In this document: positions 6,490 to 26,993 of the stretch, piece after piece
How positions within the stretch are numbered: position 1 is the first letter of the stretch
Layout of the letters: the number at the start of each line of letters is the position of its first letter
Source of the DNA: Microbacterium oryzae
GTDB lineage: Bacteria; Actinomycetota; Actinomycetes; Actinomycetales; Microbacteriaceae
Direction of reading: 5' to 3'
DNA length: 64,000 bases
NCBI RefSeq assembly: GCF_009735645.1
Contig: NZ_CP032550.1
Location: forward strand, 2,108,001-2,172,000
Position numbers and translations under genes: made by a program
The notes under the pieces: model-generated
Told to the model about the DNA's origin: nothing
The model's input: the letters and a program-made list of their open reading frames with translations, nothing else
Databases searched by the model: none

Positions 6490-6924
6490 ATGGCGACAGT
6501 GCTGACAGGACAGATCGACGTGGCCGCCCCTCCGGGGCAGGTCTACGAGTGCTGGACGGACGTGGCGTCCTTCCCGGACGTCCTCGAGATGGTCCAGTCC
6601 GTCCGCGTCGTGGATGAGGTGCGGTCGTTCTGGCAGGTGCGGATCGGACGCAGCGTGCAGGACTTCTACGCCGACATCGTGGATGCCGTGCCGGGCCGGC
6701 GCGTCGGCTGGCAGAGCACCGACGGCATCCTGCACTCCGGGCACGTCGAGATCGAGGAGCAGGGCGACAGCACGCACGTGACGCTCCGCGCGGTGTGGGA
6801 TCAGCAGGACCCCTTCGCCGGCATCGGCCTCCCGGTCGCCATCGACCAGGACATCGCGCAGCGCGATCTCCAGCGCTTCAAGCGGATGGTCGAGGCCCGC
6901 GCCCGCAGCGACATCTCGCGCTGA
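6490..6924 (+). CDS. SRPBCC (polyketide cyclase/START-like) protein
   Basis: A 144-aa small ligand-binding protein. It opens with a strand (GQIDVAAPPGQVYECWTDV) and the family pattern of putative membrane-active START proteins: FPDVLEMVQSV, then WQSTDGILHSGHVEI, and a long C-terminal helix (IAQRDLQRFKRMVEAR). There is no secretion signal. A close paralogue lies at 11649-12098 on the other strand and shares the WQSTDG-x-x-H-x-G-x-V-E core. It starts 77 bases after the SDR stop, so the two may be co-transcribed. A lipid or aromatic ligand is likely but not identifiable. Confidence 0.8.
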   Translation: MATVLTGQIDVAAPPGQVYECWTDVASFPDVLEMVQSVRVVDEVRSFWQVRIGRSVQDFYADIVDAVPGRRVGWQSTDGILHSGHVEIEEQGDSTHVTLRAVWDQQDPFAGIGLPVAIDQDIAQRDLQRFKRMVEARARSDISR

Positions 6925-6939
6925 GACTCGGGCAGCGGG

Positions 6940-7482
6940 TCAGGACGCCGGTTCCTCCTCCGGCGGATACCAGACCCGCTGCCCCTCCACGCGCGCGAAC
7001 GACGTCAGCGTGTGGGGCCGATTCGACGTGCGGCTCATTATGTCGAGCACCTCGACGCCGCGCACCACGAGCGCGTCGCCGATGAGGGAGCGATGGCAGC
7101 GCCACGGCACCGCCTCCGCGCACATGATCGCCACGCGCCGCTCCTCCGCGAGCCCGATGAGCTCGTCCACGCCGCCGGCGAATGCCTCCGTCTGCATGTA
7201 GTCGGCGTAGCTCTGGAAGCTGTGGTTGCGCCACGCCCCGTTGACGGTGGGCTCGCCCACGCGCGTGTACCGCCGTCCGCCGAGATCCTCGAGGAGGCGA
7301 TACCCGATGCCCGCGGCCTCCAGGGAGCGGGGCAGCTCGTCACGCCCGAACTGCGGGTTGCGGCGCGATCCCACCACCGAGCGCACGTCGCCGATGAGCT
7401 CGACGCCGTTGACCTCGAGCATCTCGAGGAACTCCTCCAGCGGATGGTTGGAGTGCCCGACCGTCAGCACCTGCGTCGTCAT
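6940..7482 (-). CDS. DUF488 family protein
   Basis: A 180-aa protein of the DUF488 family. The N terminus VLTVGHSNHPLEEFLEML is the family hallmark, followed by DVRSVVGSRRNPQF, YRLLEDLGGRR, YADYMQTEAF and the conserved CAEAVPWRCHRSLI motif near residue 125, whose Cys and His residues could act catalytically or bind a metal. The biochemical role of the family is not established. The ATG has a strong GGGAGG site. It is convergent with the SRPBCC gene and lies downstream of the MmyB-type regulator on the same strand, 33 bases after that gene's stop. Confidence 0.85.
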   Translation of the reverse strand: MTTQVLTVGHSNHPLEEFLEMLEVNGVELIGDVRSVVGSRRNPQFGRDELPRSLEAAGIGYRLLEDLGGRRYTRVGEPTVNGAWRNHSFQSYADYMQTEAFAGGVDELIGLAEERRVAIMCAEAVPWRCHRSLIGDALVVRGVEVLDIMSRTSNRPHTLTSFARVEGQRVWYPPEEEPAS

Positions 7483-7515
7483 GGATCCTCCCTGCCGCCA
7501 CGCTAGCAACCCGCG

Positions 7516-8307
7516 TCAGTCGGCGGCCGGCACGTACATCACGACGTGCAGGTCGACGGCGTCGGATGGCACGAGACGGTGATGATCGAAGGCGAGGAGA
7601 CCCTCCTCGCGATGCCGGAACATCCGCCGCCGCGAGGCGAAGCGCGACACCTCCAGCTCCGACCACTGCTCGCGGAAGTCGAGGCTGGAGGCGAGGAGCC
7701 GGTCGACGAGCGCGCGATGTCGCGGTGCGCCGAGACGCACGCCCGCCTCCGCGCGGAACTCCGCCAGGAACCGACGGCTGTCGCGCGCCCAGTCCGGCAG
7801 CATCTCGCGGAGCTCCGGGTCGGTGTAGATGAGCCAGAGGAGGTTGCGGTCGGCGACGTCGAGCGTGGCGATGCGCGGATACAGCCAGGCGTACCGCGGG
7901 TTCCAGCCGGCGATCGCCCAGTCGGTGGCGACGACGAACGCCGGGAAGTCGAGCGCGTCGACCAGCCGCTGCAGATGCACCGGCACGCTGTCGCGGTCGG
8001 GGGCGGATGGCCCCGCCTCCTGCTCCGCGAGGGCGAGCACGTACTCGGTCTCGTCGGCCGTGAGCGCGAGCACACGCGAGACCGCGACGAGCACCTGCCG
8101 AGAGACGTTGATGTCGCGCCCCTGCTCGAGCCACGTGTACCAGGAGCCGCTCACCCCGGCGAGCGTCGCGACCTCCTCGCGGCTGAGTCCGGTGTCGCTG
8201 CGCCGCGCGGACAGCGGGAGGCCGAGCGCGGTCCGGCTCGCCGATCGCCGCCGCGCCCCGAGGAACTCTCCGAGCTGCTCGCGGCGAGGAGTGCGAGGGC
8301 GGATCAC
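7516..8307 (-). CDS. MmyB-type XRE transcriptional regulator
   Basis: A 263-aa one-component regulator. Residues about 20-75 form an XRE helix-turn-helix (TGLSREEVATLAGVSGSWYT WLEQGR). The remainder matches the MmyB-like ligand-binding domain (PAFVVATDWAIAGWNPRY, LLWLIYTDPELREML, ending HHRLVPSDAVDLHVVMYVPA), which in related proteins binds fatty-acid-like ligands in a PAS-like pocket. The GTG at 8307 is preceded by TACCAT with a six-base gap, the leaderless arrangement common in this window. The alternative ATG at 8352 would turn the palindrome in front into coding sequence. It is divergent from ilvD. Confidence 0.85.
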   Translation of the reverse strand: MIRPRTPRREQLGEFLGARRRSASRTALGLPLSARRSDTGLSREEVATLAGVSGSWYTWLEQGRDINVSRQVLVAVSRVLALTADETEYVLALAEQEAGPSAPDRDSVPVHLQRLVDALDFPAFVVATDWAIAGWNPRYAWLYPRIATLDVADRNLLWLIYTDPELREMLPDWARDSRRFLAEFRAEAGVRLGAPRHRALVDRLLASSLDFREQWSELEVSRFASRRRMFRHREEGLLAFDHHRLVPSDAVDLHVVMYVPAAD

Positions 8308-8313
8308 TCCCCG

Positions 8314-8336
8314 ATGGTACTCGCAGTACCAGTACC
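8314..8336 (-). promoter_or_regulatory. Operator-like palindrome on the MmyB-type regulator promoter
   Basis: GGTACT-CGC-AGTACC (8316-8330) is a perfect 6-bp inverted repeat, followed at once by another AGTACC (8331-8336). Its edge overlaps TACCAT (8319-8314 on the minus strand), the predicted -10 of the regulator gene. This is the position expected for autoregulation, and it lies 33-53 bases from the ilvD start. Confidence 0.6.
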
Positions 8337-8368
8337 GGCCGTGACTCCCCATGATCCGAGGAAGGTGC

Positions 8369-10237
8369 GTGACTGAGACCATGCCCGCACTCCGCTCCCG
8401 CACGATCACCCACGGCCGCAACATGGCCGGCGCCCGCGCACTGCTGCGCGCCGCCGGCGTTCCCGGAGCGGACATCGGGCGGAAGCCCATCATCGCCGTC
8501 GCCAACTCGTTCACCGAGTTCGTCCCCGGGCACACGCACCTCGCCCCCGTCGGCCGCATCGTCTCCGAGGCCATCACCGCCGCAGGCGGCGTGCCCCGCG
8601 AGTTCAACACCATCGCCGTCGACGACGGCATCGCCATGGGCCACGGCGGCATGCTCTACTCGCTGCCCTCGCGCGACCTCATCGCCGACTCCGTCGAGTA
8701 CATGGTGAACGCGCACTGCGCCGACGCGCTCGTGTGCATCTCGAACTGCGACAAGATCACCCCCGGCATGCTCCTCGCCGCGCTGCGCCTCAACATCCCG
8801 ACCGTCTTCGTCTCCGGCGGCCCGATGGAGTCGGGACGCGCGACGCTCGTCGACGGCACCGTGCGCACCCTCGACCTCGTCGACGCGATCTCGGAGGCGG
8901 TCAACGAGAACGTCTCCGACGCCGACATCCAGCGCATCGAGGAGGCGGCGTGCCCGACGTGCGGCTCGTGCTCCGGCATGTTCACCGCCAACTCGATGAA
9001 CTGCCTCACCGAGGCCATCGGCCTCTCGCTCCCCGGCAACGGCTCGGTGCTCGCCACCCACACCGCCCGCCGCGCGCTGTACGAGAAGGCGGGCTCGCTC
9101 GTCGTCGACATCACACGCCGCTACTACGACGAGGACGACGCCTCGGTGCTCCCCCTCAACATCGCGACGCCGGCCGCCTTCGGCAACGCCATGGCGCTCG
9201 ACATCGCGATGGGCGGCTCGACGAACACGATCCTCCACCTCCTCGCCGCCGCGCACGAGGCGGGCGTCGCCTTCGGCCTCGACGAGATCGACGAGGTCTC
9301 CCGTCGTGTGCCGTGCCTGGCGAAGGTCGCCCCGAACGTCGCGGACGGCCGCACCTACTACATGGAGGATGTGCACCGCGCGGGCGGCATCCCCGCCCTC
9401 CTCGGCGAGCTCCGCCGCGGCGGTCTGCTCGACGAGAACGTGCACACCGTCCACGCGCAGACGCTCGGCGCCTGGCTCGACGAGTGGGATGTCCGCGGCG
9501 GCTCCGCGAGCGACGAGGCGCGCGAGCTGTGGCACGCGGCGCCGGGCGGTCGGCGCTCGTCGACCGCGTTCTCGCAGTCGGAGCGCTGGCGGGAGCTCGA
9601 CGTCGATGCGGCCGGCGGCTGCATCCGCGACGTCGAGCACGCGTACTCGAAGGATGGCGGCCTGGCGGTGCTGCGCGGCAACATCGCCGTGGACGGCGCG
9701 GTCGTGAAGACCGCCGGCGTCGACCCCTCGATCTGGACCTTCACCGGCCCGGCGGTCGTCTGCGAGTCGCAGGATGAGGCCGTGCAGAAGATCCTCGCGA
9801 AGGAGGTCGCGGAGGGCGACGTCGTCGTCATCCGCTACGAGGGCCCCAAGGGCGGCCCCGGCATGCAGGAGATGCTCTACCCCACGTCGTTCCTCAAGGG
9901 ACGCGGCCTCGGCAAGAAGTGCGCGCTCATCACCGACGGCCGCTTCTCGGGCGGCACGTCGGGCCTGTCCATCGGACACGTCTCGCCCGAGGCGGCGGCC
10001 GGCGGGCTCATCGCGCTCGTGGAGGACGGCGACATCGTCTCGATCGACATCCCGACGCGCGCGATCTCGCTCGACGTGCCCGACGCGGAGCTCGAGCGGC
10101 GCCGCGCCGAGCTCGAGGCGAACGGCGGCTACCGTCCGAAGGACCGCGTGCGTCCGGTCTCGGCCGCCCTCCGCGCCTACGCCGCGTTCGCCCAGTCGGC
10201 GGACAAGGGCGCGGTGCGGGTCGTTCCGGAGATCTGA
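8369..10237 (+). CDS. ilvD: Dihydroxy-acid dehydratase
   Basis: A 622-aa enzyme of branched-chain amino-acid and pantothenate precursor synthesis. It dehydrates 2,3-dihydroxy-3-methyl(iso)valerate to the 2-oxo acid and carries an Fe-S cluster. The full family pattern is present: [26 protein letters not shown] (near residue 121), [19 protein letters not shown] (near 193), the [14 protein letters not shown] helix and [20 protein letters not shown] near the end. The length is that of the long E. coli type. The GTG start has a GAGGAAGG site; ATG codons at 8351 and 8381 are alternatives. No other ilv gene lies in the window. It is divergent from the MmyB-type regulator, which might control it (inference). 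Confidence 0.96.
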
Positions 10238-11648: not shown

Positions 11649-12098
11649 TCAGGAGGCGAGGGACCGGTCCTCCACCGCGTCGCCGCCGGTCGCGAGGGCG
11701 TCCGCCTCCAGCCCGCTCTTGAAGCCCTCGAGCGCGCGCTGCAGATGCGCGTCGGCCATCTCGCTGCCGTCGGCGACCCCCTCGATGTCCCACGCCATGC
11801 GCAGCGTCACCCACGTGCCCGCGCCCTCGGGCGCGAGCTCCACGCGTCCGTTGTGCACGACGCCGTCGGTGCTCTGCCACACCAGCCGATCCGGCGCGAC
11901 CTGCTCGACGACATCCACGTAGATGTCGTCGACGAAGCCGCCCACGGAGATCGTCCAGCGCGAGCGCACGTCGTCGATGCGCCGGACCGCGGTCACCGTG
12001 TCGATGAATCGCGGAAACGCCTCGACCTGCGCCCACTGCCGGTAGGTCTCGTCGATCGGCGCGGCGACATGGATCCGCGCCATCAGGGTCCTGGTCAT
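11649..12098 (-). CDS. SRPBCC (polyketide cyclase/START-like) protein, second copy
   Basis: A 149-aa paralogue of the protein at 6490-6924. It shares the helix-grip core: ARIHVAAPIDETYRQWAQVE at the start, FPRFIDTVTAVRRIDDVRS, then WQSTDGVVHNGRVEL and a long final helix (DAHLQRALEGFKSGLEA). No signal peptide is present. The ATG has a GGGAGGGATC site. It is transcribed towards the DUF7882 gene, whose start is 16 bases beyond its stop, although that gene also has its own leaderless promoter. The ligand is unknown. Confidence 0.8.
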   Translation of the reverse strand: MTRTLMARIHVAAPIDETYRQWAQVEAFPRFIDTVTAVRRIDDVRSRWTISVGGFVDDIYVDVVEQVAPDRLVWQSTDGVVHNGRVELAPEGAGTWVTLRMAWDIEGVADGSEMADAHLQRALEGFKSGLEADALATGGDAVEDRSLAS

Positions 12099-12208: not shown

Positions 12209-13852
12209 TCAGCCGACGTGCTCGACGAGTCCCTCGTCCTCGACGAGCTCGAGTGCGAGCACCCGGTAGCCGGCGCTCTCGAAGAAGACCGTCATGCGGT
12301 CGTCCTCGACGTCCATCACGGTGCCGTCGCCCCACTCGCGATGACGCACCCGATCGTCCACGCGGTAGCCGCTCTCCTGCCCCGACGCCTCGACGTCCGG
12401 CGTCTCGGCCGCATGGCCCTCCAGGCACGTGTCGCAGTTGCCGCAGGGGTCGGCGAGCTCCTGCCCGAAGTACCCCAGCAGCACCTGGCGACGGCACCTC
12501 CGCGTCTCGGCGTAACCGCGCAGCATCTCGATGCGCGACTGCTCGACGCGCTGCCTGTCCTCGACGTGCGCGAACGCCGCCGCCACCGCCTCCGCATCGT
12601 CGACGTGGGCCCGCAGGGAAGCGCCGCGCCGGTTCAAGCGCACCGATCCCGTGTCCGACAGCAGCGCGAGAAGCGCGACCGTGCGGCGCAGCGGGATCCC
12701 CGCGGCGTCGGCCACCGCCTGCCGCGCGTGGTGCCCGTCGCGCAGCGCGCCGAGCACGGCGCGGATGTCGTCGGCGTCGGTTCCGCGCGAGGCGAAGAAG
12801 CGGCGGATCCCCAGATCCTCCGGCCGATAGTGCAGGGTGGCGCGGGCGGAGCCGCCGTCGCGACCGGCTCGGCCGAGCTCCTGGTAGTACGCGTCGATCG
12901 ACTCGGGCGCGTCCGCGTGCACGACGAAGCGCACGTCCTCCTTGTCGATGCCCATGCCGAACGCCGACGTCGCCACGACCACGTCGAGGTCGCCGTCGCG
13001 GAACTCCTCGTGCACGCGATTGCGCTCGCCCACGCGCAGACCCGCGTGGTACGCGGCCGCGCGCAGTCCGCGCTCCGCGAGCTCCGCCGCGTAGCGCTCG
13101 GTGTCGCGCCGCGTGGAGGTGTAGATGAGACCGGGGCCGGGAAGCCCCACCACCTCCTCGACCACCGCGTGCCGCTTGCCGGCGTCGTCGACGTGGCGAC
13201 GGACATCCAGCGCGATGTTGACGCGGTCCATGTCGCCCACGAGCACCAGCGGATCGCGCATGCCGAGGCGCTGCATGATCTCCTCGCGCACGGGCGTGGA
13301 CGCGGTGGCGGTCAGCGCGACGACGGGCGGGCGGCCGAGGCGCTCGGCGAGCGACCCGATGAGGAGGTAGTCCGGGCGGAAGTCGTGCCCCCAGGAGGTG
13401 ATGCAGTGCGCCTCGTCGATGACGAGCAGCGAGATCTCGCGCTTCGCCAGCGCGCTGATCACGTCCTCCTTCGCGAGCTGCTCGGGGGCGAGGAGCACGT
13501 ACTCCGCCTCGCCCTCCTCCAGCTGCCGCCATGCCTCGCGGCGAGCGCGGGCACCGCGTGCGGAGTTCAACGCCACGGCATGCGGAGCCGCCGGAGCGTC
13601 ATCGAGGCCGATGAGCTGATCCTCCTGCAGGGCGATGAGGGGCGAGACCACCACCGTGATGCCGGGGAGAAGCGCTCCGGTCACCTGGTACACCGCCGAC
13701 TTGCCGAAGCCCGTCGCCCACACGGCCAGGACATCGCGCCCCTGCGATGCCGCGTCGATTGCCTCGATCTGCTCCGGACGCAGCTGCTCGAGGCCGAAGC
13801 GCTCGCGCGCGGTCTCCTCGATCTCCGCGGTGCGCGGCACGGCCGGGCTCAT
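12209..13852 (-). CDS. recQ: RecQ-family ATP-dependent DNA helicase
   Basis: A 547-aa 3'-5' DNA helicase. Helicase motifs run in order: WATGFGKSAVYQ (Walker A, about 42-53), VSPLIALQEDQ, VIDEAHCITSWGHDFRP (DEAH box, about 141-157), ALTATAST, IYTSTRRDTE, AYHAGL, VATSAFGMGIDKEDVRFVVH and QELGRAGRDG. Four zinc-ligand cysteines follow (about 450-475), ending in CGNCDTC. There is no HRDC domain; instead the C terminus has a small beta-rich segment (VRHREWGDGTVMDVEDDRM). It unwinds DNA at recombination and repair intermediates. Its ATG overlaps the TGA of the upstream CYP152-like gene (ATGA), so the two are translationally coupled. Confidence 0.95.
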   Translation of the reverse strand: MSPAVPRTAEIEETARERFGLEQLRPEQIEAIDAASQGRDVLAVWATGFGKSAVYQVTGALLPGITVVVSPLIALQEDQLIGLDDAPAAPHAVALNSARGARARREAWRQLEEGEAEYVLLAPEQLAKEDVISALAKREISLLVIDEAHCITSWGHDFRPDYLLIGSLAERLGRPPVVALTATASTPVREEIMQRLGMRDPLVLVGDMDRVNIALDVRRHVDDAGKRHAVVEEVVGLPGPGLIYTSTRRDTERYAAELAERGLRAAAYHAGLRVGERNRVHEEFRDGDLDVVVATSAFGMGIDKEDVRFVVHADAPESIDAYYQELGRAGRDGGSARATLHYRPEDLGIRRFFASRGTDADDIRAVLGALRDGHHARQAVADAAGIPLRRTVALLALLSDTGSVRLNRRGASLRAHVDDAEAVAAAFAHVEDRQRVEQSRIEMLRGYAETRRCRRQVLLGYFGQELADPCGNCDTCLEGHAAETPDVEASGQESGYRVDDRVRHREWGDGTVMDVEDDRMTVFFESAGYRVLALELVEDEGLVEHVG

Positions 13853-17597: not shown

Positions 17598-19085
17598 GTG
17601 AGCGGAGTCCCCCGGGATGTCGCGCGCCTCACGGAGGCGCGCGAGGGTGCCGCCCTCGGACTCGTCCGCAGCCGCTGGGCGCCGCTCATCATCGCGGTGT
17701 TCCACGCCTCCTTCTCGCAGGAGGTGAAGCGGGTCCGCGCGGAGCGCCTGCACGTGCAGGTCGACACCTATCTGCACGAGCTGCGCGACGCGGGCTTCGA
17801 GGTGCCGGCGCAGGAGGAGGGCCGCGCGCTCTGCCTCTCGTGGATGCGCAGCCAATGGCTCCGACGCGTCCCCCTCGACGACGGCGGCGAGGCGTACGAG
17901 CTCACCTCGCACGCGCTGGCTGCCATGCGCATGCACAGCGAGCTCTACCGCGAACGCGCGCTCCTCAGCGAATCGCGGCTCACGACCATCCTCGACGCGG
18001 TGCGCCGCTGGGCGACCGAGGCGAACCCCGACGAGACCGCCCGAGTCGCGGCGCTCGACGCGGAGATCGCGCGCCTCTCGGCTGAACGGGATCGGCTGGT
18101 CTCGGGCGGCGAGGTGGCCGTCGCCGATGACGAGCGCATGCTCGGGGGATACACCGACCTGGTCGAACTCCTCGACCAGCTCCCCGGCGACTTCCGTCGC
18201 GTCGAGGAGGCGCTGGACGCCATCCACGATCAGATGGTGCGCGACTTCCGCGCCGAGGAGCGCCCCAAGGGAGAGGTGCTCGCGGACTACCTCGCGGCCA
18301 GCACCCGGCTGGCATCGCAGACGCGCGAGGGACGGGCCTTCCAGGGCGCCCTCACGGTCCTCGGCGATGAGGAGCTCCTCGCGACGTTCCGCGAGGACCT
18401 CCGCGCGATCATGACGCATCCGTTCGCACGCGACCTGTCTGCGGAGGACCGCGCCGCCTTCGTGAACGCCGACGCCGTGCTGCGGCGCGGCCTCCGCGAC
18501 GTGCAGACCCGGCAGCAGCGCGCCTCGCAGTCGCTCGCGGAGTACCTCGCCGCATACGACTCCATGCAGGAGCGCGAGCTCACCCGCACGCTGCGGCGCG
18601 TGGAGCAGGAGCTCGCGGTGTGGATGGAGACCGCCCGCGCGCGCGACACCGTCCCGCTGCCGTGGATGCCCGCGCGCCTGGAGATGGAGCACCTGCGCAC
18701 GCGCTTCCACGACCCGAGTCGCGAGCGGCCGGCTCCGCCGCTCGAGGACGTCTCGGCGCAGGCGCCCGCGCCGCCGTCGCTCGACGACGTGCGCCGACAG
18801 GGCGGGCCGCTCCTCGGCGAGGTGCGACAGGCGCTCACCTCGGCGGCCGCTCGCGGCGCGGCGACGCTGTCGGAGGCGTTCAACGCGCTCCCCGACGACC
18901 TGCGCCGCCCCGTCGAGGTCTTCGGCGTCGCGCACCTCGCGGCCGAGCACGGCCTCCCCGCAGGGCTGGCGGACGATGGCGGGGTCGTCCGGACGATCCG
19001 CCCCGACGGCACCGTGCGCGCCTTCGCGCTCCCCGCCCTGCAGCCCCCGACCGAGACACCAGGAGACGGCCATGACGACGCCTGA
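17598..19085 (+). CDS. jetA: DUF3375 protein, JetA/MksF-like kleisin subunit
   Basis: A 495-aa protein of the DUF3375 family, the kleisin-type subunit of Wadjet type I and MksBEF-like SMC complexes. The N-terminal winged-helix part reads ALGLVRSRWAPLIIAVFHAS and VQVDTYLHELRDAGF; then come long helices (VAALDAEIARLSAERDRLV) and the family segment VELLDQLPGDFRRVEEALDA. The C-terminal part is again folded (LPDDLRRPVEVFGVAHLAAE). The length agrees with JetA. The GTG at 17598 has a GGAGC site and fits the conserved start; a TTG at 17538 is an alternative. The last 14 bases overlap jetB. Confidence 0.9.
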   Translation: MSGVPRDVARLTEAREGAALGLVRSRWAPLIIAVFHASFSQEVKRVRAERLHVQVDTYLHELRDAGFEVPAQEEGRALCLSWMRSQWLRRVPLDDGGEAYELTSHALAAMRMHSELYRERALLSESRLTTILDAVRRWATEANPDETARVAALDAEIARLSAERDRLVSGGEVAVADDERMLGGYTDLVELLDQLPGDFRRVEEALDAIHDQMVRDFRAEERPKGEVLADYLAASTRLASQTREGRAFQGALTVLGDEELLATFREDLRAIMTHPFARDLSAEDRAAFVNADAVLRRGLRDVQTRQQRASQSLAEYLAAYDSMQERELTRTLRRVEQELAVWMETARARDTVPLPWMPARLEMEHLRTRFHDPSRERPAPPLEDVSAQAPAPPSLDDVRRQGGPLLGEVRQALTSAAARGAATLSEAFNALPDDLRRPVEVFGVAHLAAEHGLPAGLADDGGVVRTIRPDGTVRAFALPALQPPTETPGDGHDDA

Positions 19086-19851
19086 CCACGGCTCCGCTGA
19101 CCACGACTCCACGGAGAACGCCTTCGCCGACGACGCCTTCACGGTCGCCGACCCGATCGAGGACGCGCCCGACGACACCCGGCTGTCGCTCTTCGAAGGC
19201 GACGAGGGCATGCTGACGCTCGAGCAGCGCCGGTGCCTCGTCGTCGTGCTGAAGCACCAGATCATCACCGACGACCGCGACGAGTGGCCTGTGCTCGTCC
19301 GCGACGCGCGGCTCATCCGCAGCCGGCTCAACGACCTCTTCCTCGACCTCGTGATCGACCGAGACCGCGGAGTCGCCTACAAGGTGCAGATCCGCTCCGG
19401 CGCGTCGGGCTACGTGCCCCCGCTTCTGCGCGACACCGCCTACACGCGCGAGGAGACGGTCCTCCTCGCCCACCTGCGGCAGCGCCATCTCGCCGAGCGC
19501 GGCAGCGGCCATCCGCACGCGCACATCGATCGCGACGACTGCCTCGCGGCGGTGGCCCAGTTCCGCCCGGCGACCGCGACCGACCGCTCGGGCGACGAGA
19601 AGAAGGCGGGCGCCGCCGTCGACGCCCTCGTCAAGGCCGGCATCCTCGTGAAGGCCGACGGCGACGACCGCTTCCTCATCTCCCCCGTGATCGAGACGCT
19701 GCTGCCGATCGACCGGCTCCGGGTCATCCAGGAGTGGCTGGCCGAGCAGAACCGGCCGGAGAACGCGCGGCGACGACGCGACGAGACGCTGCCCGATGAG
19801 CCGGACGACGCCCTGCCGGACGACGACGACGACGAGGAGGACGCCGCGTGA
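19072..19851 (+). CDS. jetB: DUF4194 protein, JetB/MksE-like subunit
   Basis: A 259-aa protein of the DUF4194 family, the KITE-type winged-helix subunit that bridges kleisin and ATPase in JetABC/MksFEB complexes. After a 45-residue acidic tail, the conserved core is LSLFEGDEGMLTLEQRRCLV, VLKHQIITDDRDEWPVL, LIRSRLNDLFLDLVID and YTREETVLLAHLRQRHLAE, ending in ISPVIETLLPIDRLRVIQEW. A very acidic tail closes the protein. The ATG has an AGGAGA site inside the end of jetA, and its stop overlaps the jetC GTG (GTGA), so all subunits are coupled. Confidence 0.9.
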   Translation: MTTPDHGSADHDSTENAFADDAFTVADPIEDAPDDTRLSLFEGDEGMLTLEQRRCLVVVLKHQIITDDRDEWPVLVRDARLIRSRLNDLFLDLVIDRDRGVAYKVQIRSGASGYVPPLLRDTAYTREETVLLAHLRQRHLAERGSGHPHAHIDRDDCLAAVAQFRPATATDRSGDEKKAGAAVDALVKAGILVKADGDDRFLISPVIETLLPIDRLRVIQEWLAEQNRPENARRRRDETLPDEPDDALPDDDDDEEDAA

Positions 19852-22800
19852 GCGACCTGTTGATCGCCGGCTACGACGACGAGACCGCCCAGTGGCGCGC
19901 CAGCCACCTGCAGGTGCTCAACTGGGGCGGCTTCCACGGCCACCACCGCGTCGACTTCGACCGCGACGCCACCCTCATCTCCGGCGGCTCCGGCACGGGC
20001 AAGAGCACCCTGCTCGACGCGTACATCGCGCTCATGATGCCCGCCACGGTGCCGTTCAACGGCGCCTCGAACGACGCCACCATCGGCCGCGCCCGCGGCG
20101 CCGACCAGCGCAACGTGCTGACGTACCTGCGCGGCAAGCGCGACAGCGTGCGCGACGTCGAGCGCGTGCTGCGCGGCGACGGCGCGAGCGTCTGGGGCAT
20201 CATCTCGATGACGTTCGTCGACGGCTCCGGCCGCCGGTACACGGCGCTGCGCACCTACTTCGCCCCGGCGGGAGCGCAGCGGAGCACCGAGGTGCGCTCG
20301 CGGCACCTCACCCTCGAAGGCGACGTGCACCTCCCCGACCTGGCCGAGTTCGCGGACGGCCGCTTCGACCCGCGCGCGATGCGGGCGCGGCTCTCGACGC
20401 TGCGCTACCACGAGACCACCCAGGACTTCCTCGCGGCGGTCGCCGCGCGCCTGGGGATCGGCGAGGGCGGCAACAGCGACAACGCCCTGCGCCTCCTCTC
20501 CCGCATCCAGGCGGGGCACCAGGTGCGCACGGTCGACCGGCTCTACAAGGAGATGGTGCTGGAGGAGCCGCCCACGTACGCGGCGGCGGACGCGGTGCTC
20601 GCGCAGTTCCAGGCCCTCAAGCAGAGCCACGAGAGCCTCGCCGCCGACGAGGCCAAGGAGCGCATGCTCGCCGACATCGGGCAGCTGCACGAGGAGTACG
20701 AGAGCGCGCGCGGACGCGTCGCCCGCCTCGACCGCTACGGCCTCCTGCACGCCGACGAGGCATCGCCGTTCCGTCGCTGGGCGGCGGAGGCGGAGCACCG
20801 CCTGCTGGTCGAGGCCGAGGAGGCGAACAAGGCCGCCCGGGAGACGCAGAAGGAGGCGCTCGCCGTCGCGCGCGCGGCGGAGACCGCCCTCGCCGTCGAG
20901 GTCGAGGACCTCAAGGAGCAGCGCGCGCAGAACGGCGGCGACCTGCTCGCACGCCTCGACGCGCGCCTCGCGGATGGCCGTGCGCGCGTCGCGCGGGTCG
21001 CCGACGCCCGGCGCACCCTCGAGGAGCGCGTGGCCGCCCTCGACGTGGACCTCACGTCAGCCGATGCGCTGCGCGCGGCGCAGGATGGCGCGGCATCCTT
21101 CCTCGCGGAGGTCGACGACCGGCTCGCGGAGCTGAAGCGCCGGCGCGACGAGGACGTGCTCGCGGTCGGAGATCTCACGCGCAAGCGCCGTGGCGACCTC
21201 GCGGAGCTGGAGTCGCTGCGCGGCCGCGACAGCCTCGTGCCCGACGCCTACGACCGCATCCGGCGCGACATCGCCGAGGCCTGCGGCATCGACGCCGCCG
21301 ACCTGCCGTTCGCCGCCGAGCTCATCGACGTGCACCCCGATCACGAGGCCTGGCGCCACGCGGCGGAGGTCACGCTCTCGGGCATCGGGATGACCCTCCT
21401 CATGGACGCGCGTCGGCAGCCGCAGATCCGCGAGGCGATCGAGTCGCTGCGGATCGGCCGGCGCATCCGCTTCGACGGCGTCGACCTCGCCGAGCGCGCG
21501 GAGACCCCGGCGGATCCGCGCTGGATCTCCGGCCGCCTCGTCTTCAAGGACTCCCCCTTCACCGACTGGGTGAAGCGCCGGGTCGTCGCGAGCGACCACC
21601 TCTGCGTCGACGGCCCGAGCGAGCTGGGCGGCGACGAGCCGAAGGTCACCGTGAACGGCCAGACCTCGCACGGTCGCCGCGGCGCCCACGGCCGCGACCC
21701 GCGCGAGCGCTCGATCCTCGGCTTCTCCAACGAGACGCGCCGCGCCGAGATCGAGGGCGAGATCGAGGCCGCCACCGCGCGGATCGCCGAGCACGAGGAG
21801 GCGCGAGCCCGGCACGAGCGCGAAGCGGACGAGGTGCAGCGCCTCGCCGAAGCCTGCCGACGCGTGCAGGACGTGGAGTGGGCGTCGATCGACGTCGCGG
21901 CCGTCGAGCGCGAGGTGAGCGACCTCGCGGAGCAGCGCGCGGCCATCCTCGACCGGTCGGACCTGCTGGGCGAGCTCGACGCGCGCCTCGTCGACGCGGC
22001 GGAGCGGCTCGAGGCGGCCCGCAGCGAGCGCTACCGCCGCGCGGCGGATCTCGAGGACCTGGAGCGGGTGTGGGGCGGCATCGTCGATCGGCAGGACGCC
22101 GTCGCCGCCGAGCGCGACCGTCTCGACGTCGTCCTGACCGACGAGGACGCCGCGCACCTGGACGCGGAGCTGCGGCGCATCGAGCCCGACGTCACGGCCG
22201 AGCGATTCGCGAAGACCCTCCCCCGCCTCATCGACGAGCTGCAGCTCGACGTGCGGCGCGCCCACGCCACGCTCGACGCCGCCGCCGCATCGCTCGAGCG
22301 CATCTTCGCCGCCTACAGCGAGAAGTGGCCCGACCCGAACCGCGGGACGACCGTGGAGGCGTACGACGAGTTCGCCGCGATCCACGAGGAGATCGCCCAC
22401 CACGGCCTCTCGCAGCACCGGCTCGAGTTCCGCCGTCACCTGCAGGAGGTCAGCACCATGGACCTCAAGATGCTGAGCGACTCGTTCGGCCACGCGCTGC
22501 TGAGCATCGAGGAGCGCCTCGAGCCGGTGAACGACATCCTCCGCGACCTCCCGTTCGCGTCCGACGACGACCGGCTCCGCATCGAGATGCGCCACCTCCA
22601 TCCGGAGCGCATCGAGACCATCCGCACGCAGCTGAAGGAGCTGTCGGCGGAGGTCACCGGCGAGTGGACGGCGGAGGAAGCCGACCGGCGCTTCGCCCGG
22701 CTGCAGGAGTTCATCGACCTCATCGACGCCTCGACCGCCAACCCGCGCCGCGACGAGGTGCTCGACGTGCGCCGCCACATCGAGATCACCGCGAGCCGCA

Positions 22801-23168
22801 TCGACGCCGACGGGCGCGAGGTCAGCACCTACTCGACGCTCGGCGACAAGTCGGGGGGCGAGTCTCAGGAGCTCGTGGCGTTCATCGTCGGGGCGGCCCT
22901 GCGCTACCAGCTGGGCGACCAGACCCGCTCCTGGCCGCGCTTCGCGCCGGTCTTCCTCGACGAGGGATTCGTGAAGGCCGACAGCGCGTTCACGGGGCGG
23001 GCCATCCGCGCCTGGCTGGGGCTCGGCTTCCAGATCGTCGTCGTCGCGCCGCTCGACAAGGTCAACACGCTCGAGCCGCACATGGGTCTCAACCTCTCCG
23101 TGACGAAGAACGAGGCGGGGTACTCCTTCGTCACGCCCTTCCGCGACGCCGACGACAGCGCGGCATGA
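19848..23168 (+). CDS. jetC: SMC/MukB-like ATPase, JetC/MksB-like
   Basis: A 1106-aa ABC-type coiled-coil ATPase of the COG4913 kind. The head has Walker A SGGSGTGKST (about 45-54) directly after LNWGGFHGHHRVDF, the ABC signature DKSGGESQEL (about 998-1007) and Walker B PVFLDEGFVKAD (about 1035-1046). Between them are long heptad-rich Ala/Glu/Arg coiled-coil arms interrupted near residues 465-600 by a compact hinge-like part (ACGIDAADLPFAAELIDVHP onward). It is the motor of the complex and should load on and extrude DNA. GTG start overlaps jetB; the TGA overlaps the FUSC gene ATG. No JetD toprim nuclease follows. Confidence 0.93.
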   Translation: MSDLLIAGYDDETAQWRASHLQVLNWGGFHGHHRVDFDRDATLISGGSGTGKSTLLDAYIALMMPATVPFNGASNDATIGRARGADQRNVLTYLRGKRDSVRDVERVLRGDGASVWGIISMTFVDGSGRRYTALRTYFAPAGAQRSTEVRSRHLTLEGDVHLPDLAEFADGRFDPRAMRARLSTLRYHETTQDFLAAVAARLGIGEGGNSDNALRLLSRIQAGHQVRTVDRLYKEMVLEEPPTYAAADAVLAQFQALKQSHESLAADEAKERMLADIGQLHEEYESARGRVARLDRYGLLHADEASPFRRWAAEAEHRLLVEAEEANKAARETQKEALAVARAAETALAVEVEDLKEQRAQNGGDLLARLDARLADGRARVARVADARRTLEERVAALDVDLTSADALRAAQDGAASFLAEVDDRLAELKRRRDEDVLAVGDLTRKRRGDLAELESLRGRDSLVPDAYDRIRRDIAEACGIDAADLPFAAELIDVHPDHEAWRHAAEVTLSGIGMTLLMDARRQPQIREAIESLRIGRRIRFDGVDLAERAETPADPRWISGRLVFKDSPFTDWVKRRVVASDHLCVDGPSELGGDEPKVTVNGQTSHGRRGAHGRDPRERSILGFSNETRRAEIEGEIEAATARIAEHEEARARHEREADEVQRLAEACRRVQDVEWASIDVAAVEREVSDLAEQRAAILDRSDLLGELDARLVDAAERLEAARSERYRRAADLEDLERVWGGIVDRQDAVAAERDRLDVVLTDEDAAHLDAELRRIEPDVTAERFAKTLPRLIDELQLDVRRAHATLDAAAASLERIFAAYSEKWPDPNRGTTVEAYDEFAAIHEEIAHHGLSQHRLEFRRHLQEVSTMDLKMLSDSFGHALLSIEERLEPVNDILRDLPFASDDDRLRIEMRHLHPERIETIRTQLKELSAEVTGEWTAEEADRRFARLQEFIDLIDASTANPRRDEVLDVRRHIEITASRIDADGREVSTYSTLGDKSGGESQELVAFIVGAALRYQLGDQTRSWPRFAPVFLDEGFVKADSAFTGRAIRAWLGLGFQIVVVAPLDKVNTLEPHMGLNLSVTKNEAGYSFVTPFRDADDSAA

Positions 23169-24226
23169 TGGGGTCGTTCCTGCGAGACTTCCTCCGCATC
23201 CATCCCGCGCGCGGGGAATGGACCGTGGCCATCCGCGCCGCACTGTCGGTGCTGCTGCCGCTGCTCGCGCTCTGGGCGACCGGGCGGCTGGAGTGGGCGA
23301 TGTACGCGTCGTTCGGCGCGCTGTCGTCGATCTTCGGCCGGACGCTGCCGCTGCCGCAGCGGCTGCGCGCGCAGGGCGAGGCCGGTTTCACGCTCGTCGC
23401 GGCCATCCTGATCGGAGTGACGGTCGCCCTCTCCCCCGTGCGCGAATGGGTGCTGATCCCCGTGGCGGCCGTCTTCGCGACCGGGATGGCCGTGGTCGCG
23501 CATCGACGCAACTGGCACCCGCCCGGGGTGCTCTTTCAGGTCTTCGCACTCGGCGCCTGCGCATCGACCCCGCATGTGGTCGCCGACCTCGCGCCCGCCG
23601 CCCTGGTGTCGATCGCCGCGCTCGCGCTGAGTCTCGCGCTGACGTACCTCACGTCGCTCGCCCGGCACCTCTGGCGCCGCCGGGCGGGCCGCGCGACGCC
23701 GGCATGGCCGCGGCAGACGCCCGCTCCCGGCACCCTGCCGGGCGACGGGCCGGAGTGGCCGCTGCGTCACTACGTCGTCCGGTACGCGGTCGGCATCGCG
23801 CTGGCGGGCGTCCTCGCGACGGCGGTCGGCGTGGGTCATCCGTACTGGGCGATCGTGTCGGTCGTCGTGCCGATGGCCGCGCCGACCGCCGCGGCCCGCA
23901 CGCTGCGCGGCGTGCAGCGCGTCGTCGGCACGCTCGCCGGCGTGCTCGTGACGTGGGTGCTGCTGTCGTTCTCGCCGTCGCCGCTCGCGCTCATCCTCAT
24001 CGTCACGGCGATGCAGGTGGGCGCCGAGCTCTTCGTGGGGCGCAACTACACGGTGTCGCTGCTGTTCATCACGCCGCTGGCGCTCTGCATGGTGCAGCTC
24101 GGCCATCCGCTGCCCGTCGCGCAGCTCGTCTCGGACCGTGCGATCGAGACAGTGCTCGGCGTCGCGGTCGCGCTGGCGCTCACGCTCGTCACCCGCGAGC
24201 GCCGTCAGCGCGGCGACGCGGACTGA
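23165..24226 (+). CDS. FUSC-like (aromatic acid exporter type) membrane protein
   Basis: A 353-aa inner-membrane protein in the position where jetD would be expected. Two repeats of four to five hydrophobic helices are separated by a charged linker (RHLWRRRAGRATPAWPRQT). The segments AIRAALSVLLPLLAL with MYASFGALSSIFGR in the first half, and AVGIALAGVLATAVGVGHPYW with RTLRGVQRVVGTLAGVL in the second, are typical of FUSC/YccS-type transporters. The substrate is unknown. The ATG overlaps the jetC TGA (ATGATG), so translation is coupled to the SMC complex. Whether the proteins work together is an inference from this overlap only. Confidence 0.85.
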   Translation: MMGSFLRDFLRIHPARGEWTVAIRAALSVLLPLLALWATGRLEWAMYASFGALSSIFGRTLPLPQRLRAQGEAGFTLVAAILIGVTVALSPVREWVLIPVAAVFATGMAVVAHRRNWHPPGVLFQVFALGACASTPHVVADLAPAALVSIAALALSLALTYLTSLARHLWRRRAGRATPAWPRQTPAPGTLPGDGPEWPLRHYVVRYAVGIALAGVLATAVGVGHPYWAIVSVVVPMAAPTAAARTLRGVQRVVGTLAGVLVTWVLLSFSPSPLALILIVTAMQVGAELFVGRNYTVSLLFITPLALCMVQLGHPLPVAQLVSDRAIETVLGVAVALALTLVTRERRQRGDAD

Positions 24227-25616: not shown

Positions 25617-26993
25617 TCAGGAGCGGGCGGCGGAGCGCATGCCGGCGGCGTCCCGCTCCCACGCCGCGCGCATGAAGCGGCGCACGTCCTCATCCACCCG
25701 GATGTCGGATGGCCGCAGCGGCCGGGTGAGGTAGAGCCCTTCGAGCGACGTGAGGCGGCTGAGCGCGACGTACGTCTGCCCCGGCGCGAACGCCCCGGAT
25801 CCGAGGTCGACGATCGCCCGGTCGTACGTCTTGCCCTGCGACTTGTGGATGGTCACCGCCCATGCGAGCCGCAGCGGGAACTGCGTGAACTCCGCCACGA
25901 CGTCGCGGCTGAGCTTCTTCGTCGCGGCGTCGTAGGAGTACCGGTGCTTCTCCCACACCGTCGGCTCCACGTCGAACTCCTCGCCGTCGACGTCCACCCG
26001 CACGGAGTCGCCCAGGATGCGCGTGACCGTGCCGATCGTCCCGTTCACCCAGCGCGGGCCATCCGGGCCGGCGATGTCGTTGCGCAGGAACATCACCTGC
26101 GCCCCCACCTTGAGCTTCAGCTCGTCGTCGGCGGGATACACGTCGCCGCGGCCGAAGTCGCCGCTGATGTCGGCCTTCGCCGTCTGCTCGCGCCCCTTCA
26201 GAGCCGCGAGATGGGTCGCATTGATCGCGTTGACGCGGTCGTTGCGGGTCGCGAGGGTGATGACGGGGTCGGAGGGGTCGGACGGCGGGGTCCGCGCACC
26301 GGCCCGGTTCAGCGTCTCGGCGATATCGGCCGTCACGCGGCCGTACCGCACCGCGTTCAGCATCGCCTTGAAGCCGTCGTCGGACTGGCGGTGGATGTGC
26401 GTCAGCTCTCGGATGTGCAGCTCCGCACCGTGCCGCCCGAGGTCGATGAGGCCGTCGCCGCCGGGCTCGATCCCCGCCCAGACGTGCGCGTCGAAGAACC
26501 AGAACGACCGGTAGTGGTCCTGGATGTACCGCGCCTCGTCGCCGCGGGGCGGAACCGGCGCCAGCTGATACGGGTCGCCGAACATCACCACCTGCACCCC
26601 GCCGAAGGGCTCGCGGCGGCGCCCGCGCGCCTGCCGCAGCGACCGGTCGATGCCATCCATGAGGTCGGCGTTCACCATCGAGATCTCGTCGATGACGAGC
26701 GTGTCGATGGCGTTCAGCAGCTTGCGCGTGGCGTCGCTCTGCTCGAGGTCCTGGTCGGCGATGAGGCCGATGGGGAGCTTGAACAGCGAGTGGATGGTCT
26801 GGCCCTCGACGTTGAGAGCGGCCACGCCCGTGGGCGCGCAGATGGCGATCTGCTTGCTCGTGTTCCAGGTCAGATGGCGCAGCAGGGTCGATTTGCCGGT
26901 GCCGGCGCGCCCCGTGATGAAGACATGCTCGCGCGTGTCCTCGATGAGGCGGAACAGGGCTTCCTGCTCCGCCGACAGAGCAGGTGCGGTCAC
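25617..26993 (-). CDS. PIF1/RecD-like AAA helicase
   Basis: A 458-aa superfamily 1 helicase. Motif I FITGRAGTGKSTLLRHL (about 23-39), then ICAPTGVAALNVEGQTIHSLF, the motif II region LVIDEISMVNADLMDGID (about 96-113), MFGDPYQLAPV, ELTHIHRQSD, and the C-terminal UvrD_C-like LAWAVTIHKSQGKTYDRAIV with TYVALSRLTSLEGLYL. These match PIF1/Dda/RecD2 5'-3' DNA helicases. It probably acts on replication or repair structures. The GTG start at 26993 is supported by TACCAT and a six-base gap (leaderless); GGAGGG in that gap is coincidental or dual-purpose. It is divergent from the membrane protein at 27101. Confidence 0.9.
   Translation of the reverse strand: MTAPALSAEQEALFRLIEDTREHVFITGRAGTGKSTLLRHLTWNTSKQIAICAPTGVAALNVEGQTIHSLFKLPIGLIADQDLEQSDATRKLLNAIDTLVIDEISMVNADLMDGIDRSLRQARGRRREPFGGVQVVMFGDPYQLAPVPPRGDEARYIQDHYRSFWFFDAHVWAGIEPGGDGLIDLGRHGAELHIRELTHIHRQSDDGFKAMLNAVRYGRVTADIAETLNRAGARTPPSDPSDPVITLATRNDRVNAINATHLAALKGREQTAKADISGDFGRGDVYPADDELKLKVGAQVMFLRNDIAGPDGPRWVNGTIGTVTRILGDSVRVDVDGEEFDVEPTVWEKHRYSYDAATKKLSRDVVAEFTQFPLRLAWAVTIHKSQGKTYDRAIVDLGSGAFAPGQTYVALSRLTSLEGLYLTRPLRPSDIRVDEDVRRFMRAAWERDAAGMRSAARS

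Follow-up and report, generated by a model that had tools for sequence, protein, structure and literature searches.

The window analyzed here, a stretch of 64,000 nucleotides from Microbacterium oryzae (contig NZ_CP032550.1, positions 2,108,001 to 2,172,000), carries a jetABC (mksFEB) operon in a genome that has no detectable JetD, the nuclease of Wadjet type I systems. In those systems dimeric JetABC first extrudes the plasmid completely, and only then does JetD cut it (PMC12647877, PMC12287153; papers here and below are cited for the accessible portions of their text). The absence of the nuclease is real and is common among relatives of the operon. We think it somewhat probable that the M. 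oryzae motor loads on DNA and loops it but does not cut it, a likely second condensin working alongside the SMC of the cell, and that the FUSC gene overlapping jetC is likely a bystander.

The three genes constitute the Wadjet type I core, JetA (DUF3375), JetB (DUF4194), and JetC encoded in one operon (Table 1). The best PADLOC models for the encoded proteins were JetA1, JetB1, and JetC1, and the nearest solved PDB chains were likewise JetA, JetB, and JetC. An initial annotation had read DUF3375, DUF4194, and an ATPase of 1106 residues as a single unit in the Wadjet type I order, and the coordinates together with the Pfam and PADLOC searches bore this out, jetA and jetB overlapping by 14 bases and jetB and jetC by four. 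The fourth overlapping gene, which it had called FUSC-like, matches FUSC_2; its overlap with jetC is also of four bases (ATGA, on the jetC stop codon) and its product gave no PADLOC match. Note that a longer open frame (19796-24226) contains the FUSC stretch and overlaps jetC in another frame; the FUSC gene was nevertheless taken with the boundaries given in Table 1.

The host genome is one contig of 3,040,780 bases and is listed as 100% complete. A profile search of the complete genome gave zero matches to JetD_C (PF09983). For DUF3322 there was a single sub-threshold match genome-wide (13.5 bits versus a cut-off of 22), in a frame of 758 residues whose coordinates put it ~1.9 Mb away. The JetD protein of Wadjet type I (DUF3322 plus JetD_C/DUF2220) was found neither as the fourth gene nor elsewhere in the genome. 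The initial annotation had seen no DUF3322/DUF2220 protein in the window, which agrees with these searches, and had suggested that the nuclease might be encoded elsewhere, which for JetD they do not support. The JetD_C model detected Corynebacterium glutamicum among the controls and, as the search found JetD within ~6 kb of all 11 high-scoring jetA genes in the genus (see below), insensitivity is an unlikely cause of the missing match.

Apparent JetD remnants in many JetD-less loci were rejected as an artefact of stop-to-stop JetD queries, because these queries started too far upstream and took in the 3' end of jetC, read in a different frame. When the JetD profile was run on the same strand over the 5 kb after jetC, no match with a domain E value <0.5 was obtained in any locus lacking JetD. 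The JetB N-terminus was also considered as a JetD docking mark, and LFxGDxG-like stretches were present both with and without JetD and hence are not diagnostic.

Distribution and history of JetD in relatives

Three partly overlapping genome samples were searched: 119 genomes of the genus Microbacterium, 394 genomes of the class, and 118 of the genus of genome G271 (the G271 locus, L104, is the same as L225 of Nocardioides lianchengensis). In the Microbacterium sample DUF3375 scored above the cut-off in 59 genomes and JetD_C in 18. Full-length jetA genes of this sample comprised a high-scoring group (11 loci, 418-466 bits) and a low-scoring group (53 loci in 52 genomes, 258-386 bits), and the window jetA (338 bits) belongs to the latter. 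This hand tally omits eight partial or sub-cut-off DUF3375 matches, and the class tally omits split or partial ones. JetD was encoded within ~6 kb at 11 of the 11 high-scoring loci versus only four of the 53 low-scoring (window-type) loci, five of the other 49 stopping at a contig edge. JetD_C was found nowhere in 40 of the 52 genomes having a low-scoring jetA, even with fragments counted as matches.

In the class sample JetD was linked to 22 of 23 high-scoring versus five of 43 low-scoring full-length loci. The corresponding values for the genus of G271 were eight of eight versus seven of 77 matches (a few of the low-scoring matches are shortened or contain a stop), and of the 77 genomes that carry DUF3375, 62 lack any JetD_C match. 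The sole high-scoring miss in the class sample, in genome G343 (L147), is a jetA that scored 445 bits; the genome lacks JetD_C, and no jetC was found within the surrounding 10.4 kb.

In total 200 jetABC loci were analyzed: the window, 119 from the genome samples (L147 was dropped, having no jetC), and 80 named loci that were the best 80 of 189 relatives. By the JetD profile 48 loci have JetD, 139 do not, and 13 lie too near a contig edge; six of the loci are duplicates. Removal of six short JetC sequences and four duplicates gave a JetC tree of 190 rows, in which two further duplicates remained. The JetC clade that includes the window has 144 rows, 19 with JetD and 116 without (114 distinct), the nine unjudgeable rows being uncounted. 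An 11-row subclade around the window, composed of Microbacterium, Arachnia, Galactobacter, an Arthrobacter, and a Propionibacteriaceae metagenome-assembled genome, had a support of 100 in both JetC trees and lacks JetD in 10 of 10 judgeable rows.

JetD was probably ancestral in this clade and lost repeatedly, as judged by comparison of the JetD and JetC trees. In a tree of 36 JetDs, the eight from the large JetC clade grouped together with a support of 98. For the 19 JetD-bearing loci of the clade, 10 of the 16 splits (one of them weak, 58) were common to the two trees, versus a mean of 0.29 and a maximum of three in 500 shufflings, and a Mantel comparison of JetD with JetC gave an r value of 0.78, with 0 of 9999 permutations as high. 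The trees largely agree, which suggests that JetD travelled with JetC from the clade ancestor. If only losses are allowed, the IQ-TREE tree requires 28 of them (21 when branches with support below 95 are collapsed) and the FastTree tree requires 28 and 18, respectively.

Two Kineosporia loci illustrate the two states at close range. The JetC proteins of L204, which has JetD, and L224, which does not, are 95% identical and the flanks match on both sides; in the place of jetD L224 has an opposite-strand gene (8028-9899, minus strand) that is PLD-like by Pfam. In another locus, L060 (G041:C22), jetD is present and only the second half of jetC is in frame, owing to either a frameshift or an assembly error. 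In a search for JetC on plasmids 16 of 72,556 records matched, none reaching 60% identity.

Conservation and location of the motor

At the level of sequence the motor is kept at loci without JetD. In an alignment with all key columns covered, the Walker A, signature, and Walker B residues were intact in 144 of 145 JetC proteins from loci in which no JetD was found, a set that includes contig-end loci of unjudged JetD state; the sole exception, L067, is truncated at the edge of its contig. The residues were intact in 47 of the 48 JetC proteins from JetD-bearing loci. The ratios of nonsynonymous to synonymous substitution rates (dN/dS) between the window and M. barkeri, the nearest relative, were 0.14 for jetA, 0.23 for jetB, 0.21 for jetC, and 0.24 for the FUSC gene.

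The chromosomal setting of the operon was compared in deduplicated pairs of JetD-less loci. At JetC identities of 85-95% a flank gene was held in common by 196 of 228 pairs, which indicates that the operon mostly stays put as close species diverge. At identities of 65-75% only 20 of 616 pairs had a flank gene in common. A fuller account, which we advance tentatively, is that one JetABC clade may have lost its nuclease about twenty separate times while selection preserved the motor at a mostly constant chromosomal site, and that what had been a defence system became a second condensin, now the common form in genera such as Nocardioides and Microbacterium.

Several results weigh against the reading of the operon as a nuclease-free condensin that lost JetD. 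The presence of the operon is patchy (DUF3375 in 59 of the 119 Microbacterium genomes), which also fits a dispensable or a defence role. The JetD of L131 groups with the low-type JetDs, but by its JetC this locus falls outside the clade. Six of the 16 JetD splits are absent from the JetC tree and, when gains and losses are given equal cost, only 11 changes are needed (13 on the 190-row tree), so that gains are formally possible. The median jetC dN/dS values do not separate the kinds of pairs, being 0.135 without JetD (25 drawn pairs), 0.118 with JetD (eight pairs), and 0.170 for mixed pairs (eight pairs). In the 85-95% identity range there are only two JetD-bearing pairs (one of the two has a common flank gene, as does one of five mixed pairs), too few for a contrast in stability to be drawn. 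Moreover, the related MksBEFG of C. glutamicum did not alter chromosome folding (PMC7083940).

The genes following jetC

No linked gene takes the place of jetD. The first gene after jetC was assigned with a simple custom gene caller at 139 loci without JetD and 45 with it. At the JetD-less loci this gene was on the same strand in 76 cases and on the opposite strand in 63 and belonged to 89 groups, with a same-strand gap of 20 bases or fewer at only seven loci. The JetD loci gave 41 same-strand genes, 20 of them with a gap of 20 bases or fewer, and four opposite-strand genes that were caller errors. A different conserved fourth gene was considered and rejected. A scan of the 14 close same-strand neighbours (gap of 60 bases or fewer, window excluded) gave ABC, AAA/STAND, patatin, SbcD, PIF1, luciferase-like, CD225, three thioesterases, and MerR, with three unmatched. 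When gene families within ~4 kb of the operon were compared across 50 JetC clusters, JetD was found in 24 clusters and the next family, SDR-like by the start of its sequence, in six. As the flank comparison recovered JetD in this many clusters, a common linked substitute would probably have shown.

In L107 an SbcD-like nuclease gene (6775-7920, plus strand) starts ~10 bases after a JetD-less jetC on the same strand, a case seen once. A PIF1-like helicase is encoded in the window ~2.4 kb beyond jetC (25617-26993, minus strand) and also downstream in M. barkeri. A PIF1-like helicase of ~41% identity directly follows jetC in the distant JetD-less loci L112 and L113, and there was no match at the other loci examined. 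The recurrence of this helicase near jetC is probably due to chance.

The FUSC gene of the window occupies the jetD slot by position. Among the jet loci of 200 relatives (L032-L231, some cut by contig ends) FUSC was found only in L080 and L152, both of which are the same M. barkeri locus, where ~1.8 kb separates it from the upstream jetC, an interval that contains genes for a MarR regulator and an MFS transporter; within the stretches examined there was none in the other 198. The difference between the two arrangements could be explained either by one deletion in the window or by one insertion in M. barkeri. Homologues of the FUSC protein (E values up to 1e-20) are found in 51 of the 119 Microbacterium genomes. 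Judged by coordinates, the window genome and G037 are the only two in which a homologue and a jet operon of the window type are no more than a few kb apart. In G041 a homologue lies ~16 kb from a high-type jetA. The neighbours vary, by eye, at four homologous FUSC places, one of which (L234) has an MFS-like gene nearby. These data suggest that FUSC is likely a bystander of jetABC, a chance neighbour. The initial annotation had raised the possibilities that a membrane protein replaced the effector and that FUSC is constant across relatives. Neither was supported, FUSC being absent or unlinked in most relatives and no gene regularly occupying the slot across the 139 JetD-less loci.

Table 1 The jetABC operon of M. 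oryzae, JetC ATPase motifs, and the overlapping FUSC gene (window coordinates)
Feature	Coordinates	Strand	Basis
jetA / mksF, kleisin subunit, DUF3375, 495 aa, GTG start	17598..19085	+	Pfam PF11855 338 bits; PADLOC JetA1 506 bits; PDB JetA 8dk1 E 1.8e-10
jetB / mksE, KITE subunit, DUF4194, 259 aa, ATG start	19072..19851	+	Pfam PF13835 112 bits; PADLOC JetB1 236 bits; PDB JetB 8as8 E 7.4e-9
jetC / mksB, SMC-like ATPase, 1106 aa, GTG start	19848..23168	+	Pfam AAA_29 and SbcC_Walker_B; PADLOC JetC1 1210 bits; PDB JetC 8as8 E 5.7e-53
JetC Walker A GGSGTGKST, residues 46-54	19983..20009	+	Translation; alignment-column check versus 199 relatives
JetC ABC signature SGGE, residues 1002-1005	22851..22862	+	Translation; alignment columns
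JetC Walker B VFLDEGF, residues 1035-1041	22950..22970	+	Translation; alignment columns
FUSC_2 membrane protein, 353 aa, ATG start	23165..24226	+	Pfam PF13515 89 bits

Elsewhere in the window two called genes with similar-looking starts (6499-6924, plus strand, and 11649-12098, minus strand) are SRPBCC/cyclase-like by eye. A RecQ-like helicase (12209-13852, minus strand) has a Pfam match to the PcrA/UvrD-type tudor domain near its C-terminus that is just below the family cut-off.

Possible roles of a motor without JetD

JetA, JetB, and JetC would be expected to assemble into the known dimeric motor and, driven by ATP, to extrude DNA. Without JetD only the extrusion half of the reaction would remain and the DNA would not be cut. 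Uncut extrusion may compact or hold DNA, as MukBEF and Pseudomonas aeruginosa MksBEF are thought to do, and the motor would then work on the chromosome as a second condensin. The genome encodes a separate SMC of its own (an open frame of 1180 residues). The condensin role is proposed by analogy to the known nuclease-free motors, which act in chromosome segregation: P. aeruginosa MksBEF occurs together with SMC and influences how the chromosome is segregated (PMC7485682), and Escherichia coli MukBEF, which lacks MksG/JetD, acts in the same process (PMC7617805). P. aeruginosa MksBEF is held by a review to have been derived by JetD loss (PMC10586767).

The window operon resembles these Mks and Muk motors in gene content (kleisin, KITE, and SMC genes without a nuclease) and in having its ATPase head residues in place, but differs in that its nuclease-less state is nested in a clade of actinobacteria in which the other members have retained JetD. 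It shares with the Wadjet type I system JetABCD (JetABC chains solved in 8as8 and 8dk1-8dk3) the jetA-jetB-jetC order, the overlapping frames, and all three subunit families, whereas jetD is lacking at the fourth place and JetD_C in the genome. C. glutamicum, likewise an actinobacterium, has an mksFEB core in addition to a conventional SMC (PMC10123090, PMC7083940), but its MksBEFG includes the nuclease MksG and reduces the copy number of plasmids; no such nuclease was found for the window. Among the possibilities that the initial annotation listed, a MksBEF without nuclease is the one best supported by the data, a role in organizing the chromosome being putative.

The main rival to the condensin reading is plasmid restraint without cutting, in which JetABC would extrude small circles and silence or restrain them by compaction in the manner of Smc5/6. 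This is an appreciable, although unlikely, alternative. The sensing of shape and size has been ascribed to JetABC (PMC10586767), Smc5/6 silences some viral genomes (PMC7617805), patchy presence across species is usual for defence, and JetD-less loci retain a conserved motor. However, JetD-less loci mostly hold their chromosomal place across close species, no defence genes were seen by eye among the called genes of the window (six neighbours were checked with Pfam and the PADLOC scan did not extend to the neighbours), and a Wadjet type I lacking jetD has been called 'probably inactive' as defence (PMC11680222). If cutting were instead supplied in trans by a nuclease unrelated to JetD and encoded elsewhere, it could have escaped a gene comparison that spanned only ~4 kb around the operon. 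We consider this improbable, as that comparison found JetD in 24 clusters but no other family in more than six, and nuclease-like genes adjoin jetC only singly, SbcD in L107 and the PLD-like gene in L224.

The two readings that remain seem to us very improbable. The operon might be a decaying relic of a Wadjet system, given that the nuclease, and likely with it plasmid cutting, is gone and that presence is patchy; yet the open frames and overlaps are intact, as are the ATPase residues of nearly all JetD-less relatives, the dN/dS values are low (0.14-0.23), and the JetD-less state is uniform in the judgeable rows of the 11-row subclade. Slightly less credible still is a role of FUSC as a new effector or membrane anchor of JetABC in this lineage. 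The ATGA overlap with jetC is of the kind made by jetD, which overlaps by four bases at 19 of 36 loci (with chosen starts), and C. glutamicum MksBEFG is located at the cell poles (PMC10123090), but the only other linked FUSC gene among the relatives' jet loci is that of one organism, M. barkeri, behind two intervening genes, and among the 51 genomes of the genus with a homologue only two have it near a jet operon of the window type.

JetD-less operons of the Wadjet group are not themselves new. Operons having jetABC without jetD were published for Stenotrophomonas maltophilia, Paenarthrobacter lasiusi, and 'several other Wadjet group members' (PMC11680222, PMC11719660, PMC7617805); the accessible portions of these papers make no mention of repeated loss within one clade or of its frequency in actinobacteria. 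No report of repeated loss within one actinobacterial clade was found in the titles and abstract openings of the literature searched, from which subscription papers were largely absent. According to its authors, a Wadjet call by PADLOC requires the full JetABCD set, Muk-like cases being assigned to Wadjet 'other' (PMC9252829). Within these genera, a census of plasmid immunity that relied solely on jetA, jetB, and jetC would return too many positives. The JetD-less loci are natural disarmed motors, one of which (Kineosporia L224) has a close armed sister, L204, at the same chromosomal place.

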